Positions 55,961 to 64,000 of a stretch of 64,000 nt of DNA are shown piece after piece. The notes under the pieces were generated by a model. That model worked only from the letters and a program-made list of their open reading frames with translations. It did no database searches and was not told where the DNA came from. Location: contig NC_015388.1 of assembly GCF_000195295.1 (NCBI RefSeq), positions 1,426,001-1,490,000 of the forward strand. The letters run 5' to 3'. This stretch comes from Desulfobacca acetoxidans DSM 11109 (GTDB lineage: Bacteria; Desulfobacterota; Desulfobaccia; Desulfobaccales; Desulfobaccaceae). Position 1 is the first letter of the stretch. Every line of letters begins with the position of its first letter. The position numbers and the translations under genes were made by a program.

Positions 55961-56950
55961 ATGATGGCAGATTCCGCCTTTCCACCCTGGCGTTTTGCCC
56001 GGTTTCGTTTTCTGGTACGTTTCAGGGACAATGCCATTCTTCCCCCGTATAAAGGAGCCATTTTTCGGGGCGTCTTTGGAAAGACGTTACGGAAGCTGGT
56101 CTGCATCGCCCCCCAGGCGGAATGCCGGGAGTGCGCCTTTGCCGCCAAGTGTTTATACGTTGCCATTTTTGAGCCGTCGCCGCCGCCGGGCGCGCCTGAG
56201 GCCCGGAAATACCTAAAGGCCCCCCGGCCCTTCGTTCTGAACCCGCCGTTAACCAACCGGCAATCCTTTCATGCCGGCGACAGCCTGAATTTCGACCTGG
56301 TGTTGATCGGACCGGCCATCGAGGCCCTCCCCTATTTTATCTATATTTTTCAGGAGGTGGGCAAGAAGGGGTTGGGGCGGGAGCGGAGCCGGTATGACCT
56401 CATGCGGGTGGAGTCGGTCCGGGAGGGGCAAAGGGCGGTGATCTATGAGAAGGAGACAATCTTCGCCGACCGGCTGCACGCGGAGACCGGGCCGGTGACG
56501 CGGCCGGGGGATGCTGCGGTGCGGGAGGTTACCCTGGAATTGCTGACGCCGCTGCGGTTGAAGGTTCGGGGGGACCTGGCCACGGATTTAAGCTTTGGCT
56601 TGTGGTGGGAGAACCTGAGCCGACGTCTGGGGCTGCTGGCGGCGTTTTACGGGGAGGGCCGGGAGCCGGATTGGGACGGCCTGTCAGACAAGGCCGCGGG
56701 TATAACAACCAGGGAGAGCCGGCTGCACTGGTACGACTGGGAGCGCTATTCCTTCAGCCAGAAAGAACTGATGAAGCTGGGGGGCCTGAAAGGGACGATC
56801 ACCTTTGCCGGGGAGTTGGGGCCGTTCATGCCCTACCTACGCTTGGGGGAGCAGGTGAACCTGGGCCAGGGAACAACGTTCGGGTTGGGGAGGTATGGGT
56901 TGGGCCGGGGAAATACAATTTCCCGGGGGTGTGATGGGAGACAGGAATGA
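55961..56950 (+). CDS. cas6: Cas6-like CRISPR RNA-processing endoribonuclease
   Basis: Cas6 cuts the CRISPR precursor within each repeat. The 329-aa RAMP protein is the long PF10040-type form: an RFRFLVRFRDNAILPPYKGA ferredoxin-fold strand and substrate loop, a probable zinc knuckle (C48, C55, C58, C64 in VCIAPQAECRECAFAAKC), and the C-terminal glycine-rich loop GQGTTFGLGRY that packs on RNA. A catalytic His is not obvious by eye. Its 3' end overlaps the next gene by four bases. With the 37-bp array downstream it is the likely processing enzyme of this locus. Confidence 0.83.
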   Translation: MMADSAFPPWRFARFRFLVRFRDNAILPPYKGAIFRGVFGKTLRKLVCIAPQAECRECAFAAKCLYVAIFEPSPPPGAPEARKYLKAPRPFVLNPPLTNRQSFHAGDSLNFDLVLIGPAIEALPYFIYIFQEVGKKGLGRERSRYDLMRVESVREGQRAVIYEKETIFADRLHAETGPVTRPGDAAVREVTLELLTPLRLKVRGDLATDLSFGLWWENLSRRLGLLAAFYGEGREPDWDGLSDKAAGITTRESRLHWYDWERYSFSQKELMKLGGLKGTITFAGELGPFMPYLRLGEQVNLGQGTTFGLGRYGLGRGNTISRGCDGRQE

Positions 56951-57279
56951 AGCTTCCAAACCGAGATGGGGCGTACATTCCTCGGGATAAAATTATTGCA
57001 TACCTCCTATCGCCTACTCATCCAGTGGGGAGATTAAAGGCCCACTTTTTTCGGTCCATAGGTTTCGATACCAGTGATATAACTGAATTGGAGGGACAAT
57101 TTTTAAAAATCGCCCATAACGAAGATGTTATAGCTCAAATAATCTCTCCTTACGGGATAAAATTTATCGTGGACGGTGTACTGGAGAGAAAGGGGGAGGC
57201 GGTGGCCCAGATCCGGACTATTTGGATAATCGATGCAGGCGGGAATTATCCCCGTTTTGTCACCGCCTACCCCTTATAA
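56947..57279 (+). CDS. DUF6883-like protein
   Basis: The 110-aa product matches the DUF6883 pattern: MKLPNRDGAYIPRDKIIAYL, then SPTHPVGRLKAHFFRSIGFD, and ends with IRTIWIIDAGGNYPRFVTAYP. This family is often paired with a DUF4926 protein, as here (20 bp downstream), and the pair behaves like a possible toxin-antitoxin module in many genomes. Function is unproven. The start overlaps the cas6 stop by four bases, so it is translationally coupled to the CRISPR gene. It is more AT-rich than its neighbours. Confidence 0.72.
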   Translation: MKLPNRDGAYIPRDKIIAYLLSPTHPVGRLKAHFFRSIGFDTSDITELEGQFLKIAHNEDVIAQIISPYGIKFIVDGVLERKGEAVAQIRTIWIIDAGGNYPRFVTAYPL

Positions 57280-57299
57280 GAGAGGAGCAGGAGATCAAC

Positions 57300-57536
57300 A
57301 TGTTTAAAGAATTGGACATTGCCGTGCTTAGGCGGGACGTGCCGGAACACGACCTCAAATCAGGAGATATTGGTGCCATAGTACACTGCTATGACGTCGG
57401 GGAGATGTATGAGGTTGAATTTGTGGACGCCGGGGGAAAAACTGTGGCCTTGTTGACATTGGGCGCGGCCGATATCAGAGCTATGGATGGTTCAGAGATT
57501 TTACACGTCCGGGGTTTGGAGAAGGCGGCGGCTTGA
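57300..57536 (+). CDS. DUF4926-like protein
   Basis: This 78-aa acidic, beta-rich protein reads LDIAVLRRDVPEHDLKSGDI, then GAIVHCYDVGEMYEVEFVDA and TLGAADIRAM, matching DUF4926. It pairs with the DUF6883 gene before it and may be its antitoxin or partner. The start at 57300 has AGGAG 8 bases upstream. It is the last gene of the cas6 operon segment before a repeat and a transposase remnant. Confidence 0.75.
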   Translation: MFKELDIAVLRRDVPEHDLKSGDIGAIVHCYDVGEMYEVEFVDAGGKTVALLTLGAADIRAMDGSEILHVRGLEKAAA

Positions 57537-58182: not shown

Positions 58183-58520
58183 GACGCCAAACCAATCAAA
58201 ATAAAGCATTCAAAAGAGCTGGCATGACCTCTTGGTGGAAACCTATATTCTTGGGCTTTGATAACCTGATAAAAAAAGCCATGAAAAATTTAAGTCTGGG
58301 TTTTTTCATACCAAAAGATTGATGCCAACTCGTTGAGTTGCCAAAATTTGCTTTAAAAAACACGCCGCTCAATTTTGAACCTTATTTCTGGAGATACTTT
58401 TTAACAGGCTTTATAAATCAAAAGGTTGTGGCAGAGTAAAGATTGAGGTGGAAGAAAAAAATCAGGAAAAAAAGGAGAAATAACTCCATCTCCTGATTGA
58501 TATAATTTTGAGGTCAAACT
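58183..58520. other. AT-rich intergenic region before the RT operon
   Basis: About 340 bp with no gene. It is clearly AT-rich and likely holds the promoter for the membrane-protein/RT operon. A GAGG ribosome site for the next gene is at its right end. Confidence 0.45.
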
Positions 58521-59555
58521 ATGCCTGACGCCAGATTAGGCCAGGGTCTGGAAAGGCTGCGGCAGCGCCGACTTTTTCTGGACGATTTGCTTCTCGTCGC
58601 CATAGGGATAGGTCTTCTTGTTAACCTCTTTGCCAGCGCCCTCTTCGTGTATATAACTGATAGTTATAAAAAAAGCTCTTGGGGTGAAGGTTGGGGGTGG
58701 ACATTAGTATTTCTTTCTTGGCTTCTTTTTGCCATTCTATTGGTGACTTATAAAATACGCTGTCAGAAAGATATTGAGTCCAGCTATTTTACACTGGTTT
58801 TGCCCATATTAATCGATCCGGGGAATAACAACGTCGAGATTCTGCATCATGATCATTACAAACCCGCCAAGCAGGCCCGCCAGTTTTCTGAGAGTGTCAA
58901 AAACTCTTGGAAAACCCAATTTCTTCAAGACTGGCCGGGATGTAAGTTCATAAGACCCCAAGTTTTCGGCCCGGCCAATTATTGCTGGGGCGTCCTGGCG
59001 CACATCGTTCAGGCTTTACTTTTCCAGGAATTGAAGAAATATGGAGAACTGACCCTTACTCAACAAGTACGCTATCATACACGATTTCTGCGACTGGCCG
59101 TTGGCGGTCTGACGAGAGGTACGCTGGAACGGACCCAATGGCCCCAAGCACTTCAGGAAAATAAGTTTATTACCGCGGAAAAACTTTTCCTTCCCGTAGG
59201 AGCGCTTCTTACTTCGACGGAACCTTCGGTTCATCCTAATGAACCACCAGGCCGCCGGGACCTGACGGTAAGTATTAAACACGGTTCTCTGACGTTTTCC
59301 ATCTCCCCCTACTGGATTACCCTGCGCGAGATCGAACCGGCCATAAAAATCTTTGATCCTCAGGAACCTGAAAAAATCTGTTTTTTGGCCATACCCATCG
59401 AGACGCGTCTGATTTTCCAAGGGAGTTTATTGAAGCGCCAGGCAATCACAATTTACCACTATCTCTGGCTTAAAAAACTGCGCGACGCCGCCTGCCATTA
59501 TTTTAGTTGGGGAAATTTTTTAGGGATTAATCGGGAATGTGGCAATGATCTCTGA
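58521..59555 (+). CDS. unrecognised two-helix membrane protein overlapping the RT gene
   Basis: I do not recognise a family for this 344-aa protein. Two hydrophobic helices (about residues 22-46, LLVAIGIGLLVNLFASALFV, and 59-78) form a hairpin near the N-terminus, leaving a large cytosolic domain of about 265 residues, beta/alpha in character, with PEDR-free, Trp- and His-rich stretches (WYW-like GPANYCWGVLAHIVQALLF, KHGSLTFSISPYW). GAGG lies 7 bases before the ATG. Its stop codon lies 11 bp inside the reverse-transcriptase gene, so the two are translationally coupled. It may anchor the RT or sense infection at the membrane; no catalytic motif is evident. Confidence 0.8.
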   Translation: MPDARLGQGLERLRQRRLFLDDLLLVAIGIGLLVNLFASALFVYITDSYKKSSWGEGWGWTLVFLSWLLFAILLVTYKIRCQKDIESSYFTLVLPILIDPGNNNVEILHHDHYKPAKQARQFSESVKNSWKTQFLQDWPGCKFIRPQVFGPANYCWGVLAHIVQALLFQELKKYGELTLTQQVRYHTRFLRLAVGGLTRGTLERTQWPQALQENKFITAEKLFLPVGALLTSTEPSVHPNEPPGRRDLTVSIKHGSLTFSISPYWITLREIEPAIKIFDPQEPEKICFLAIPIETRLIFQGSLLKRQAITIYHYLWLKKLRDAACHYFSWGNFLGINRECGNDL

Positions 59556-60504
59556 AATAACAGTCACCTCCAACCTCCATCACGCCTTCACCCGGGTCGA
59601 GGCCTCCCAGGGCATGCCCGGGGTGGATGGGGTGAGTTTGGGGGGATTTAAGGAGGATTTGGCGGTTAATCTGGCGATATTGGGGGAGGAGCTGAGAAGC
59701 GGGGAGTATGCGCCCCTGCCGCTGTTGCGCTTTCTGGTGGCCAAGCGGGATGGGTCCCCTCGGCCTTTGTCTGTCCCTACCGTGCGGGACCGGGTGGCCC
59801 AGGCGGCGGTATTGAATAGTATTGAGCCGATTTTCGAGGCTCAATTTGAGGAGGTCAGCTTCGCCTACCGGAAAGGTCGGTCGGTGAGGCAGGCGGCGTA
59901 TCGAATCAAAGAATTGCGGGACCAGGGGTATCGGTTTGTGGTGGATGCCGATCTGGACGCCTTTTTCGACAACATTAACCATGAACTGTTGCTGGCCAAG
60001 GTTGCCAACATAATAACAGATCCGGACATCCTGAGATTGATCGGTCTCTGGGTCCAGGCCGAGGTGTATGACGGCGAGAAGATATATATGATGGAAAAAG
60101 GCATACCCCAGGGGGCGGTCATCTCTCCGGTTTTGGCAAATCTGTTTCTGGATGAACTGGATGAGGGGCTCATCCGAAAAGGCTACGCACTGGTGCGGTA
60201 TGCGGACGACTTCGTGATTTTGGCCCGGACCCGGCCGGAGGCCGAAGCGGCCATGGCGTTTACCGAAGAAATCCTGGAGAAGATGAATCTGGCCCTGGAT
60301 ATGGAGGATACGGAGATTACAGATTTTAAGCGGGGATTTACGTATCTGGGGCTGATTTTCGCGGGGGAGGCGATTCTGGCTCCCTTTGACCGGCCAAAGA
60401 GGGAGCGGAAGGTTTTGTATATGCCGCCGCCTTTTGATTTGGAGAAGTATTTTGCGGGGAGGGAGAAATTAAAGGTAAAGGGTAATGATAACATTGATGT
60501 ATAA
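59545..60504 (+). CDS. CRISPR-associated group II-intron-like reverse transcriptase
   Basis: The 319-aa protein contains all RT palm and finger motifs: LLRFLVAKRDGSPRPLSVPT, DRVAQAAVLNSIEPIFEAQF, motif A VVDADLDAFFDNI, motif B GIPQGAVISPVLANLFLDEL, motif C YADD (about residues 219-222), and FTYLGLIF. It is a single RT domain lacking the maturase and HNH parts of intron RTs, and it is not fused to Cas1 or Cas6, unlike many CRISPR RTs. ATG at 59545 (or GTG 59539) overlaps the previous gene. A toxin-antitoxin pair separates it from cas1. By analogy with RT-Cas1 systems it may copy RNA into DNA for spacer acquisition. Confidence 0.92.
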   Translation: MISEITVTSNLHHAFTRVEASQGMPGVDGVSLGGFKEDLAVNLAILGEELRSGEYAPLPLLRFLVAKRDGSPRPLSVPTVRDRVAQAAVLNSIEPIFEAQFEEVSFAYRKGRSVRQAAYRIKELRDQGYRFVVDADLDAFFDNINHELLLAKVANIITDPDILRLIGLWVQAEVYDGEKIYMMEKGIPQGAVISPVLANLFLDELDEGLIRKGYALVRYADDFVILARTRPEAEAAMAFTEEILEKMNLALDMEDTEITDFKRGFTYLGLIFAGEAILAPFDRPKRERKVLYMPPPFDLEKYFAGREKLKVKGNDNIDV

Positions 60505-60514
60505 TAGAAAAATT

Positions 60515-60543
60515 GGAGATTTTCATGCATGGGAAAAATCTCC
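60515..60543 (+). terminator. hairpin after the RT gene
   Basis: GGAGATTTT and AAAAATCTCC form a near-perfect stem around a short loop, 11 bp after the RT stop. It could stop or stabilise the RT transcript before the toxin-antitoxin genes. There is no T-run after it, so termination is uncertain. Confidence 0.45.
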
Positions 60544-60580
60544 TGGGCAACAAAGCCGCGGGTCCTTAGAGGAGGAAGCA

Positions 60581-60781
60581 ATGATAAAAACAGAGGATTT
60601 ACAGCCACAGTATATTATCAATGAAGCAGGAGAGAAAACCTCGGTTATCCTGTCTCTAGCCGCCTTTCAGGAACTCATGGAGGATATCGAAGATCTGGCC
60701 ATTGTAGCGGAAAGACGCGATGAGCCAACGATTCCTCATGAGCAATTATTAACCGAGTTGAAGGAAGATGGCCTTATATAA
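60581..60781 (+). CDS. antitoxin-like protein of a type II TA pair
   Basis: The 66-aa acidic protein (QYIINEAGEKTSVILSLAAF, then QELMEDIEDLAIVAERRDEP) has the layout of RelB/Phd-type antitoxins: a short N-terminal DNA-binding strand segment and a long helix that wraps the toxin. AGGAGG lies 6 bases before the ATG. The stop overlaps the toxin gene by 14 bp, a standard antitoxin-toxin arrangement. It sits between the RT and cas1 genes. Confidence 0.83.
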   Translation: MIKTEDLQPQYIINEAGEKTSVILSLAAFQELMEDIEDLAIVAERRDEPTIPHEQLLTELKEDGLI

Positions 60782-61028
60782 GATCGAGTGGAAAAGTTCG
60801 GCGATCAGGGAACTTAGAGGGCTCGAAAAGAGTATTATTAGAAAAATTCTGGCAGAAGTGGAGAAGCTTGCGAATAACCCCCATCCTATCGGGAGTAAAA
60901 AGCTCAGGGGCAGTAAATATAGTTACAGGCTCAAGATGGGAAATTATCGGGTAGTATATAAGGTAAGTTCTTCTGTTCTTACCATTGAGATAATCAGGGT
61001 TGGACACCGTCGGGAAGTCTATAACTAG
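60768..61028 (+). CDS. RelE/ParE-type toxin
   Basis: The 86-aa basic protein has the RelE fold signature: YKIEWKSSAIRELRGLEKSI near the start, IGSKKLRGSKYSYRLKMGNY and RVVYKVSSSVLTIEIIRVGH, ending in RREVYN. RelE-type toxins cleave mRNA in the ribosome. The conserved Lys/Arg residues in K-RELRGL and YRLKMGNYRVVYK suggest an active toxin. It is overlapped with the antitoxin gene and lies 114 bp before cas1. Confidence 0.88.
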   Translation: MALYKIEWKSSAIRELRGLEKSIIRKILAEVEKLANNPHPIGSKKLRGSKYSYRLKMGNYRVVYKVSSSVLTIEIIRVGHRREVYN

Positions 61029-61142: not shown

Positions 61143-62144
61143 ATGGCTTTTCTTTACTTGAGTGAACAGGGCGCCTGTCTGCAGAAGACGGGGGAGCGGC
61201 TGGTGGTGGCCAAGGAGGGGGAGACTCTCCTGGACCTGCCGGTGGGCAAGGTTGAGGCGGTGCTGATTTTCGGCAATGTGCAGTTTACTACCCAGGCAGC
61301 ACACCTGCTGCTGCAGCAGGGCGTGGAGATGGCCCTGTTTACCCGGCGGGGCCGACTGGTGGGGCAGCTGACGTCGCCGTTTACCAAGAATGTTACTTTG
61401 CGCCAGGCCCAGTATGATCGGGCCGCGGATCCGGAATTCGCCCTGGACCTGGCAAAAATAATCGTCGGCGCCAAACTCACCAACAGCCGGGGGCTGCTGC
61501 AGGAGTTTGCCCGCAACCACCCGGAGAGCGGACTCAAGGGAGAGATTGAGCGATTAACCGAGCTTATCCTCCAGATCGGCGGGAGCCCCAACCTAGCGGC
61601 CCTTCTGGGTCTGGAGGGCGCGGCAGCCCACACGTATTTCCAGGGATTGGCCCGGATGGTGCGGCACGGTTTCGGTTTTAGCGGGCGGCAGCATCACCCG
61701 GCCCCGGACCCGGTGAACGCTTTGCTCTCCCTAGGATATACCCTGGTGTATAATGAAATTTCCTCTCTGCTGGACGGCATGGGGTTTGATCCCTATATGG
61801 GCTTTTACCATCAGCCGCGCTACGGCCATGCCACTCTGGCCTCTGACCTGCTGGAAGAATTTCGAGCTTTATTGGTGGACCGCCTTACCCTGAGTCTGAT
61901 TAACAATCGGGTGTTTGGGGAACAGGATTTTTTCCGCCATGAACCCTCCGGCGGGATGTATCTTGGGGATGAGCCCCGCAAGCGTTATTTCCAGGAATAT
62001 GAACGGTATCTCACCAACGTGCATCACTGCCCCGAGAACGGGGGAGAAACTGATTTCCGGCGGCTTTTCCGGCGGCAGGCGGAACGGCTCATGCGGGCTG
62101 TGCTGCTTAAAGGAACCTACCAACCCTATACATTTTTCTGGTAA
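61143..62144 (+). CDS. cas1: CRISPR-associated integrase Cas1
   Basis: Cas1 with Cas2 inserts new spacers at the leader end of the array. The 333-aa protein has the N-terminal beta domain (LYLSEQGACLQKTGERLVVA) and the alpha catalytic domain with metal ligands E158 (LLGLEGAAA), H223 (GFYHQPRYGH) and E238 (SDLLEEFRALLVD). It ends typically with MRAVLLKGTYQPYTFFW. AAGGA precedes the ATG. It is a stand-alone Cas1, next to a separate RT gene. Its sequence type matches Cas1 of RT-associated type III loci, an inference by eye. Confidence 0.95.
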   Translation: MAFLYLSEQGACLQKTGERLVVAKEGETLLDLPVGKVEAVLIFGNVQFTTQAAHLLLQQGVEMALFTRRGRLVGQLTSPFTKNVTLRQAQYDRAADPEFALDLAKIIVGAKLTNSRGLLQEFARNHPESGLKGEIERLTELILQIGGSPNLAALLGLEGAAAHTYFQGLARMVRHGFGFSGRQHHPAPDPVNALLSLGYTLVYNEISSLLDGMGFDPYMGFYHQPRYGHATLASDLLEEFRALLVDRLTLSLINNRVFGEQDFFRHEPSGGMYLGDEPRKRYFQEYERYLTNVHHCPENGGETDFRRLFRRQAERLMRAVLLKGTYQPYTFFW

Positions 62145-62147
62145 ACG

Positions 62148-62426
62148 ATGATGTTTTATGCTATCAGTTATGATATCCGCGACAACCGGAGGCGTTTGCG
62201 GGTTGCCAAGATTCTGAAGGATTACGGCGAGCGGGTGCAGCTCTCGGTGTTCGAGGCCGATCTGGATGAAAAATCTTTGGCCAGGTTGAAAAAGCGGTTG
62301 GAGAAATGCCTGGACTTAACGGCAGACGGCCTCAGGCTGTATCCCCTCTGCGGCGCCTGTCGGCCCCGGATAGAGATAATGGGACAGGGAGTGGTTTCGC
62401 AAGATCCTGATTATATTATTTTATAA
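62148..62426 (+). CDS. cas2: CRISPR-associated protein Cas2
   Basis: Cas2 is the dimeric core of the Cas1-Cas2 integration complex. The 92-aa protein has the ferredoxin-like opening FYAISYDIRDNRRRLRVAKI with the conserved Asp at the end of strand 1, then YGERVQLSVFEADLD, and a LRLYPLCGACRPR segment. It begins 3 bp after cas1, directly followed by the leader and array. Confidence 0.95.
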   Translation: MMFYAISYDIRDNRRRLRVAKILKDYGERVQLSVFEADLDEKSLARLKKRLEKCLDLTADGLRLYPLCGACRPRIEIMGQGVVSQDPDYIIL

Positions 62427-62839
62427 GTTCCCATGTTCTCCCGAACACAACGAAGCATAAAAACAGTCGACTTCCAACGGATTGCCAGGAGTCATTACCT
62501 CTAACCTCTTACCCCTTACCTATAACCTGTTTTTATATAAGTGCACATGTTCTGCCGAACACAACGAAGCATAAAAACAGAATCGGTGCGGCTGCTCACA
62601 ATAATGTTTTTGCTGTTCACGGCTCACGGCTCACTGTTTTTATATAAGCAGTAGACTATACCTGGGGAGAAAAATAACGGGGAGGTTACACGGAATTTGG
62701 AACATAGTGGTTTTTCTCATATTTCGAGATGGAAAAGGGGTTTGGCAGGATAGGCGGGGAGCAGCAAAGCTGGAAAAAACAGGGGTTACACGCAGGGGAG
62801 TTCTATCCTATCGATAATTCACAGGAAATATAAGGGTGC
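62427..62839 (+). promoter_or_regulatory. CRISPR leader region
   Basis: This 413-bp non-coding stretch lies between cas2 and the first repeat. Its first part holds two copies of a dispersed motif (CATGTTCTCCCGAACACAAC and CATGTTCTGCCGAACACAAC, at 62448 and 62546), each followed by GAAGCATAAAAACAG. The part near the array has two direct GGTTACACG-type elements (about 62684 and 62786), perhaps leader anchor sites. TATAAG at 62829-62834 could be part of a -10 box. It is likely the transcription start and spacer-integration region for the array. Confidence 0.6.
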
Positions 62840-64000
62840 CTTACAACGATAAGAAGAGTCTTCGGACGATTGCGACTAATTTATAAAGGCTTCGTAGAAT
62901 TCTATAGGTCTTTGCTTACAACGATAAGAAGAGTCTTCGGACGATTGCGACGGTTCCGGCTTCACACAGACCAACTACGATCTCTTGCCTTACAACGATA
63001 AGAAGAGTCTTCGGACGATTGCGACTTGGCAAGATTCCTCACATATCTTTCATCGAAATCGCCTTACAACGATAAGAAGAGTCTTCGGACGATTGCGACT
63101 CATATAAGATCGAAAGGCTTGTCTTTGTTCCTCAGACTTACAACGATAAGAAGAGTCTTCGGACGATTGCGACTTCTTTGTGTCGTTCCTTGAACGCTTT
63201 AAGATTTTTTACTTACAACGATAAGAAGAGTCTTCGGACGATTGCGACTAAGCGAATTACCCACTCCTGGATTAGCTAAAGATATTCTTACAACGATAAG
63301 AAGAGTCTTCGGACGATTGCGACCTTCCAGCTGGGGCAAGGCCTTCAAAAGATTGTTAATCAATCTTACAACGATAAGAAGAGTCTTCGGACGATTGCGA
63401 CCCAACTTGCATATGACAGAGGAAAGCTTTTCATCAATCTTACAACGATAAGAAGAGTCTTCGGACGATTGCGACTGTTCCGCTACAGCTCGGCACATGC
63501 CCAGGCCATGCTCCTTACAACGATAAGAAGAGTCTTCGGACGATTGCGACAGAGGTCCTGCGGGCGCACCACCGTGGCGTTGCCGCCTTACAACGATAAG
63601 AAGAGTCTTCGGACGATTGCGACAGCTTCATTACCCATTCAATATCGCCGGCGAGAGCGAAAACTTACAACGATAAGAAGAGTCTTCGGACGATTGCGAC
63701 TACAAGACATGTTTGTAACTTCTGATGTATTCAACGTCGCCTTACAACGATAAGAAGAGTCTTCGGACGATTGCGACCTAATCGATATCTGAGTCTCCAT
63801 GTCAAATGCGTTGACTTACAACGATAAGAAGAGTCTTCGGACGATTGCGACCTTGATCAGATTGGAAGAGGCTGTAGAAGGCAACATTCTTACAACGATA
63901 AGAAGAGTCTTCGGACGATTGCGACTCCTGGTCGGCGTTATCCAGTAAGTCAAGGACTTCATCCTTACAACGATAAGAAGAGTCTTCGGACGATTGCGAC
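62840..64000 (+). CRISPR. CRISPR array, 16 identical 37-bp repeats, 15 spacers (runs off the window)
   Basis: Sixteen copies of one 37-bp repeat start at 62840, 62915, 62989, 63063, 63137, 63212, 63287, 63365, 63439, 63514, 63587, 63664, 63741, 63815, 63889 and 63964; I see no differences between copies. The repeat begins CTTACAACGATAAG, contains GTC-TTCG-GAC (a UUCG tetraloop hairpin in RNA) and ends GATTGCGAC, so a Cas6 cut just after the hairpin would leave an 8-base 5' handle ATTGCGAC. Spacers are 36 to 41 bp. The last copy ends exactly at base 64000, so the array continues. The leader side is next to cas2. Interference genes lie outside the window if present. Confidence 0.98.

Follow-up and report, generated by a model that had tools for sequence, protein, structure and literature searches.

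The CRISPR locus of the window

The window, a 64,000 nt stretch of the complete genome (3,282,536 bp) of Desulfobacca acetoxidans DSM 11109, carries a CRISPR locus with the gene order cas6, DUF6883, DUF4926, a 140-aa ORF, a membrane protein gene, a reverse transcriptase (RT) gene, a RelB/ParE-like pair, cas1, cas2 and the repeat array (Table 1). No effector genes were found in this locus, and it has no Cas10. The 344-aa ORF described in an earlier note was confirmed in its coordinates, start codon and length, and its TGA stop (nt 59553–59555) lies, as claimed there, within the RT gene. The overlap is 11 nt if the RT starts at ATG 59545, which comparison with relatives makes more likely than GTG 59539 (17-nt overlap).

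Table 1. Coordinates of the membrane protein gene and neighbouring CRISPR features in the window.
Feature	Position (nt)	Strand	Details and basis
cas6, upstream end of the putative former operon	55961–56950	+	PF10040; first gene in G002 too
C-terminal remnant of a III-F-like cas7 (putative)	58379–58483	+	in-frame, 34 codons and stop, 37 nt before the membrane gene
RT-linked two-TM membrane protein gene	58521–59555	+	ATG start, 344 aa
TM helix 1, about residues 20–41	58578–58643	+	hydropathy; helix H4-48 in model
TM helix 2, about residues 58–80	58692–58760	+	hydropathy; helix H56-80 in model
Soluble alpha/beta domain, residues 81–344, predicted cytoplasmic	58761–59552	+	predicted models
CRISPR reverse transcriptase (YADD), about 319 aa	59545–60504	+	PF00078, PADLOC RT, YADD, tree
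cas1	61143–62144	+	PF01867, E = 4e-90
cas2	62148–62426	+	PF09827, E = 2.6e-23
CRISPR array	62840–64000	+	16 identical 37-nt repeats in the window and one degenerate repeat just beyond (17 total)

Several other elements lie between these genes. The DUF6883 and DUF4926 genes (nt 56947–57536) occupy the expected start of an effector operon, after cas6. The pair between RT and cas1 (nt 60485–61028) specifies a RelB-like antitoxin and a ParE-like toxin; RT and cas1 are directly adjacent in two related loci described below (G005 and G002), while the corresponding junction in a third (G073) holds another ORF (167 aa as called, L043:2739-3242). The interval between cas2 and the array includes two 51-nt copies (nt 62416–62580) that are 90% alike and carry TATATAAG-like motifs, perhaps a duplicated leader.

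The short in-frame sequence upstream of the membrane gene reads TLFLEILFNRLYKSKGCGRVKIEVEEKNQEKKEK-stop and aligns to the C-terminus of the Cas7 of a type III-F locus (G133), GGYKSKGCGRVEITV, with a local score of 59, whereas none of 500 dinucleotide shuffles scored above 43. A PADLOC hmmscan of the isolated 34-aa peptide gave no match, so the cas7 assignment rests on alignment and position. Between cas6 and the membrane gene, no effector remnant was found besides this tail. From these sequences we infer that effector genes once lay upstream of the membrane gene and were deleted, while the segment from the membrane gene through RT, cas1 and cas2 to the array survived intact.

Elsewhere in the host genome are two more type III loci that encode a Cas10 (L062:7805-16666 and L063). 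One of them, at 1.92 Mb, includes a cas6 of its own, and the 20 kb of sequence read there showed neither a cas1 match nor an array; speculatively, the window array might therefore serve that locus in trans.

Predicted topology and structure of the membrane protein

Comparison of the window gene with its G005 homolog gave identities of 0.51/0.65/0.34 at the three codon positions, indicating a coding sequence under amino-acid constraint. This pattern, together with an architecture common to five homologs of 340–354 aa, shows that the ORF did not arise by chance. The protein has two hydrophobic segments (residues 23–41 and 61–79; Kyte-Doolittle means 2.48 and 2.07), and hydropathy and predicted models agree with the earlier description of a two-helix hairpin followed by a soluble domain. 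An Arg-rich sequence (RLRQRR) precedes TM helix 1, which by the positive-inside rule suggests a cytoplasmic N-terminus, and a K/R-rich sequence (YKIRCQK) directly follows TM helix 2. Positive residues on both outer sides of the hairpin suggest that both ends of the protein are cytoplasmic.

Searches of Pfam, NCBIfam, PADLOC, PHROGs and PDB sequences returned no credible match, consistent with the earlier note, which knew of no family that it matches. In the family alignment, P, W, L and Y make up most of the invariant positions, along with one E, and no obvious catalytic set is among them. As no conserved catalytic-type motif was seen, a binding or scaffold protein is more likely than an enzyme.

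AlphaFold2 models were obtained for the window protein (pLDDT 74.9, pTM 0.71) and for the distant homolog of G168 (pLDDT 70.3, pTM 0.65). They agree in showing two TM helices followed by a strand, helices, a sheet and a long C-terminal helix, although the two are not independent because they were built on the same five sequences. Foldseek searches with both models gave no match with E below 0.001, and none was found in a viral fold library at E ≤ 0.001. Comparison with the PDB returned mostly helix-grip proteins (START, StARkin, PR-10 and CoxG-like), with Z values (≤5.7 and ≤6.4) that are compatible with a mere common arrangement and lie below the level separating true relatives from such arrangements. 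The predicted order of strands and helices, and most structural matches of the two models, are those of START/SRPBCC proteins; unlike these, the present protein has additional helices inserted after strand 1 and before the sheet, and it shows no sequence match to them. The soluble domain, as modelled, thus weakly resembles the helix-grip (START/SRPBCC) fold.

Homologs, sister loci and linkage to the RT

Protein and profile searches for homologs covered the family and the order, 395 genomes sampled from the phylum, and also the class and orders to which the distant members belong (at most 395 genomes per search). The resulting family has five members including the window protein, with identities of 18–37%; the other four, with their identities, are from G005 (36–37%), G002 (33–35%), G133 (24%) and G168 (25%). 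In all five, the gene lies immediately 5′ of a CRISPR RT gene, overlapping it by 8 nt in G005, 7 in G133 and 14 in G168, and separated from it by a 2-nt gap in G002. Wherever the contig is long enough (4/4 loci), cas1 follows the RT; the G133 contig ends within the RT gene.

The phylum, order and class searches revealed no homolog away from an RT. Neither genome nor viral contig collections yielded a homolog when scanned with a single protein, and a search with a three-sequence alignment recovered only the G002 locus. Plasmids and phages gave no homolog by tblastn, and a scan of the viral collection with an RT alignment was empty; at the sensitivity used, no family member was found in the plasmid, phage and viral collections. 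Eight weak profile matches (G060, G072, G211, G287, G352, G363, G395 and G554; E values of 5e-4 to 0.009) were taken as chance: they cover short stretches, mostly of TM sequence, and the surroundings were read for G287.

The earlier note had proposed a functional link between the two genes, and had set beforehand that homologs lying mostly away from the RT, or a match to an unrelated family, would speak against it. The RT adjoins the gene in 5/5 homologs, beside different effector types, and no unrelated family was matched, which supports the link. The argument from translational coupling fared less well: the overlap is present, but is weak evidence taken alone, since genes are packed closely throughout the operon and the membrane gene of G002 shares 4 nt with the RAMP gene upstream of it as well. 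The weight lies instead on the pairing conserved in all five loci. The membrane protein represents a new ancillary protein family, which is rare and linked exclusively to one RT clade.

The effector genes beside the family differ from locus to locus. In G168, the locus (L046:6469-16977) is of type III-C, with Csx11 (TIGR02682, E = 5e-102), Cmr4, Cmr3 and Cmr6 followed by the membrane gene, RT and cas1. The G168 RT is present as two overlapping frames (L046:9270-10317) and is thus frameshifted in the assembly, by mutation or assembly error. The G133 locus carries Cas10f, Cas5f and Cas7f (III-F), the membrane gene and an RT running off the contig, while G005 is represented by a 4.2-kb contig with the membrane gene, RT and cas1. 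The order in G002 is a split cas6, a 1043-aa Cas10-like protein, a 184-aa protein, two RAMPs, the membrane gene, RT and cas1, and the effector module is a divergent type III. Its Cas10-like protein (L050:1823-4954) has an HD motif at residue 22, lacks GGDD, and shows weak PADLOC Cas10 matches and no NCBIfam match; the locus is possibly an undescribed type III variant. The GGDD motif is likewise missing from the Cas10-like proteins of G168 and G133, and was seen in both other Cas10s of the host, which served as a positive control. Consistent with this, types III-C and III-F are reported to have no cyclase motif and no known effectors (PMC11229360). With three Cas10-like proteins of the sister loci lacking GGDD, an effector driven by cOA is unlikely.

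The membrane gene therefore stays with the adaptation genes across III-C, III-F and divergent type III loci and in the effector-less locus of the window. Because the effector types vary, and because the effector operon of the window appears to have been deleted with the module left intact, the membrane protein tracks the adaptation module rather than the effector.

In phylogenetic trees, the RTs of the five family loci and of G073 form one supported clade (96/97), and the Cas1 of G073 groups with that of G168 (100/99), nested among the family-bearing loci. G073 has no family protein: the slot of the membrane gene is taken by a 310-aa CARF-domain protein that has two TM helices, in a locus that carries a Cmr6 remnant (III-B or III-C). 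On these trees, the simplest reading would be that G073 replaced the membrane gene once; a possible alternative is that the gene was gained twice, independently.

The membrane protein diverges faster than its neighbours, with identities of 33–37% compared to 66–71% for RT and 63–69% for Cas1, and in all five genomes its gene is lower in GC than the RT gene (two of the RT values are from fragments).

Possible roles of the membrane protein

RT-Cas1/Cas2 modules have been described (PMC5513706, PMC5541045), and the family loci share with them a group II-like RT by cas1 and cas2, an array, and optional or varied effectors; they differ in adding a membrane protein fixed directly upstream of the RT. 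The RT module has been characterised as an autonomous, effector-promiscuous unit, effector genes being absent in about half of RT loci (PMC5513706). The same study named III-C as the possible exception, and the RT and cas1 of G168 sit in a III-C locus. In the literature searched, we met no family of membrane proteins fixed to an RT; an earlier description is possible in the accessory type III survey of Shah et al. RT adaptation modules and membrane effectors are each already known, and the RT-fixed membrane family is new to that literature.

Our preferred reading, held tentatively and at slightly less than even chance, is that the protein anchors RT-Cas1-Cas2 at the inner membrane or regulates it. 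With a short periplasmic loop between its two N-terminal TM helices, the protein would hold the domain of ~260 residues in the cytoplasm, where it may dock on the RT-Cas1-Cas2 complex, presumably by contact with RT or Cas1, or regulate it. Acquisition of RNA-derived spacers could thereby be anchored at, or gated by, the membrane. Somewhat less likely is the specific form in which the protein, by tethering or gating the complex at the inner membrane, would let spacers be captured at the site of nucleic acid entry. We know of no protein with a dedicated membrane role in CRISPR adaptation. An adaptation role is preferred on two grounds: the protein accompanies RT-Cas1-Cas2 beside three different effector types and in one locus that lost its effector, and a route by way of cOA seems closed, the missing GGDD motifs and the report on III-C and III-F being concordant. 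Counting against it, the exchange in the G073 slot looks like one membrane effector for another; upstream RAMP genes are packed tightly with the gene too, so that RT is not the only candidate for coupling; loss of the effector genes is seen in one genome and may be recent; and the degree of divergence relative to RT and Cas1 is unusual for a core scaffold.

The most serious rival, although a less likely one, is that the protein is a membrane effector of cyclase-dead type III systems, disrupting the membrane upon infection in the manner of Cam1 or Csx23 but independently of cOA. The trigger might be the effector complex, or a small hydrophobic ligand bound in a helix-grip pocket, for which the weak resemblance of the two models offers some encouragement. 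Like Cam1 and other TM-CARF proteins of type III loci (PMC10808066), the family has N-terminal TM sequence and a cytoplasmic, sensor-like domain (in the orientation predicted here), and a 2-TM CARF protein fills the family's slot in G073, where the RT and Cas1 trees imply a swap. The lack of GGDD in all three readable effector modules beside the family also fits an effector that needs no cOA. It is this swap and the architecture that keep the rival in contention. The two differ in that Cam1 has one TM helix per chain (PMC10808066) and the family protein two, and in that the family is linked to RT, not to a cOA-producing effector. On the other side, PADLOC profiles at E ≤ 0.1 detected no CARF domain in the window, G005 and G168 proteins and matched only the TM part of the G133 protein (E = 0.054), whereas the G073 protein matched 17 families in the same scan. 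Nor did the TM hairpin show significant similarity to those of TM-CARF proteins in a comparison for common ancestry, the observed score being reached in 4–140 of 300 segment shuffles. Csx23 is another parallel in being a type III membrane protein with an N-terminal TM region, a soluble domain and no CARF, but it binds cA4 (PMC11014256), while no cOA-capable Cas10 was found in the family loci. That the window kept the gene when its effector operon was apparently lost also argues against an effector and favours the adaptation role, while the TM-CARF swap in G073 keeps the effector role serious.

Retron Ec48 consists of an RT plus a two-TM effector. By analogy, the RT and membrane protein could form a toxin-like module that answers inhibition of RT or Cas1 by killing the cell, which would explain the strict RT pairing and overlap as well as the two-TM architecture; this is improbable, as the RT, encoded beside cas1 and cas2, belongs to the CRISPR/group II type and not to the retron RTs. 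Least probable is that the gene plays no part in CRISPR and is a passenger that chance fixed in a single mobile adaptation cassette: the family is very rare (five members), fast evolving and of lower GC than the RT, but the gene is intact and under coding constraint in five loci, down to 18–26% identity and beside different effectors, always occupying one slot, with effector genes on one side and the RT on the other.

Overall, the evidence suggests that the membrane protein helps to acquire immune memory or guards the adaptation machinery at the membrane. The type III membrane proteins Cam1, Csx23 and CorA are effectors driven by nucleotide messengers; the present family follows the RT, beside Cas10-like proteins apparently unable to make such messengers. 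If the adaptation role is true, RNA spacer capture would be localised at the membrane, and if the protein is an effector, it would provide a messenger-independent membrane effector for types III-C and III-F, which have no known effectors (PMC11229360).
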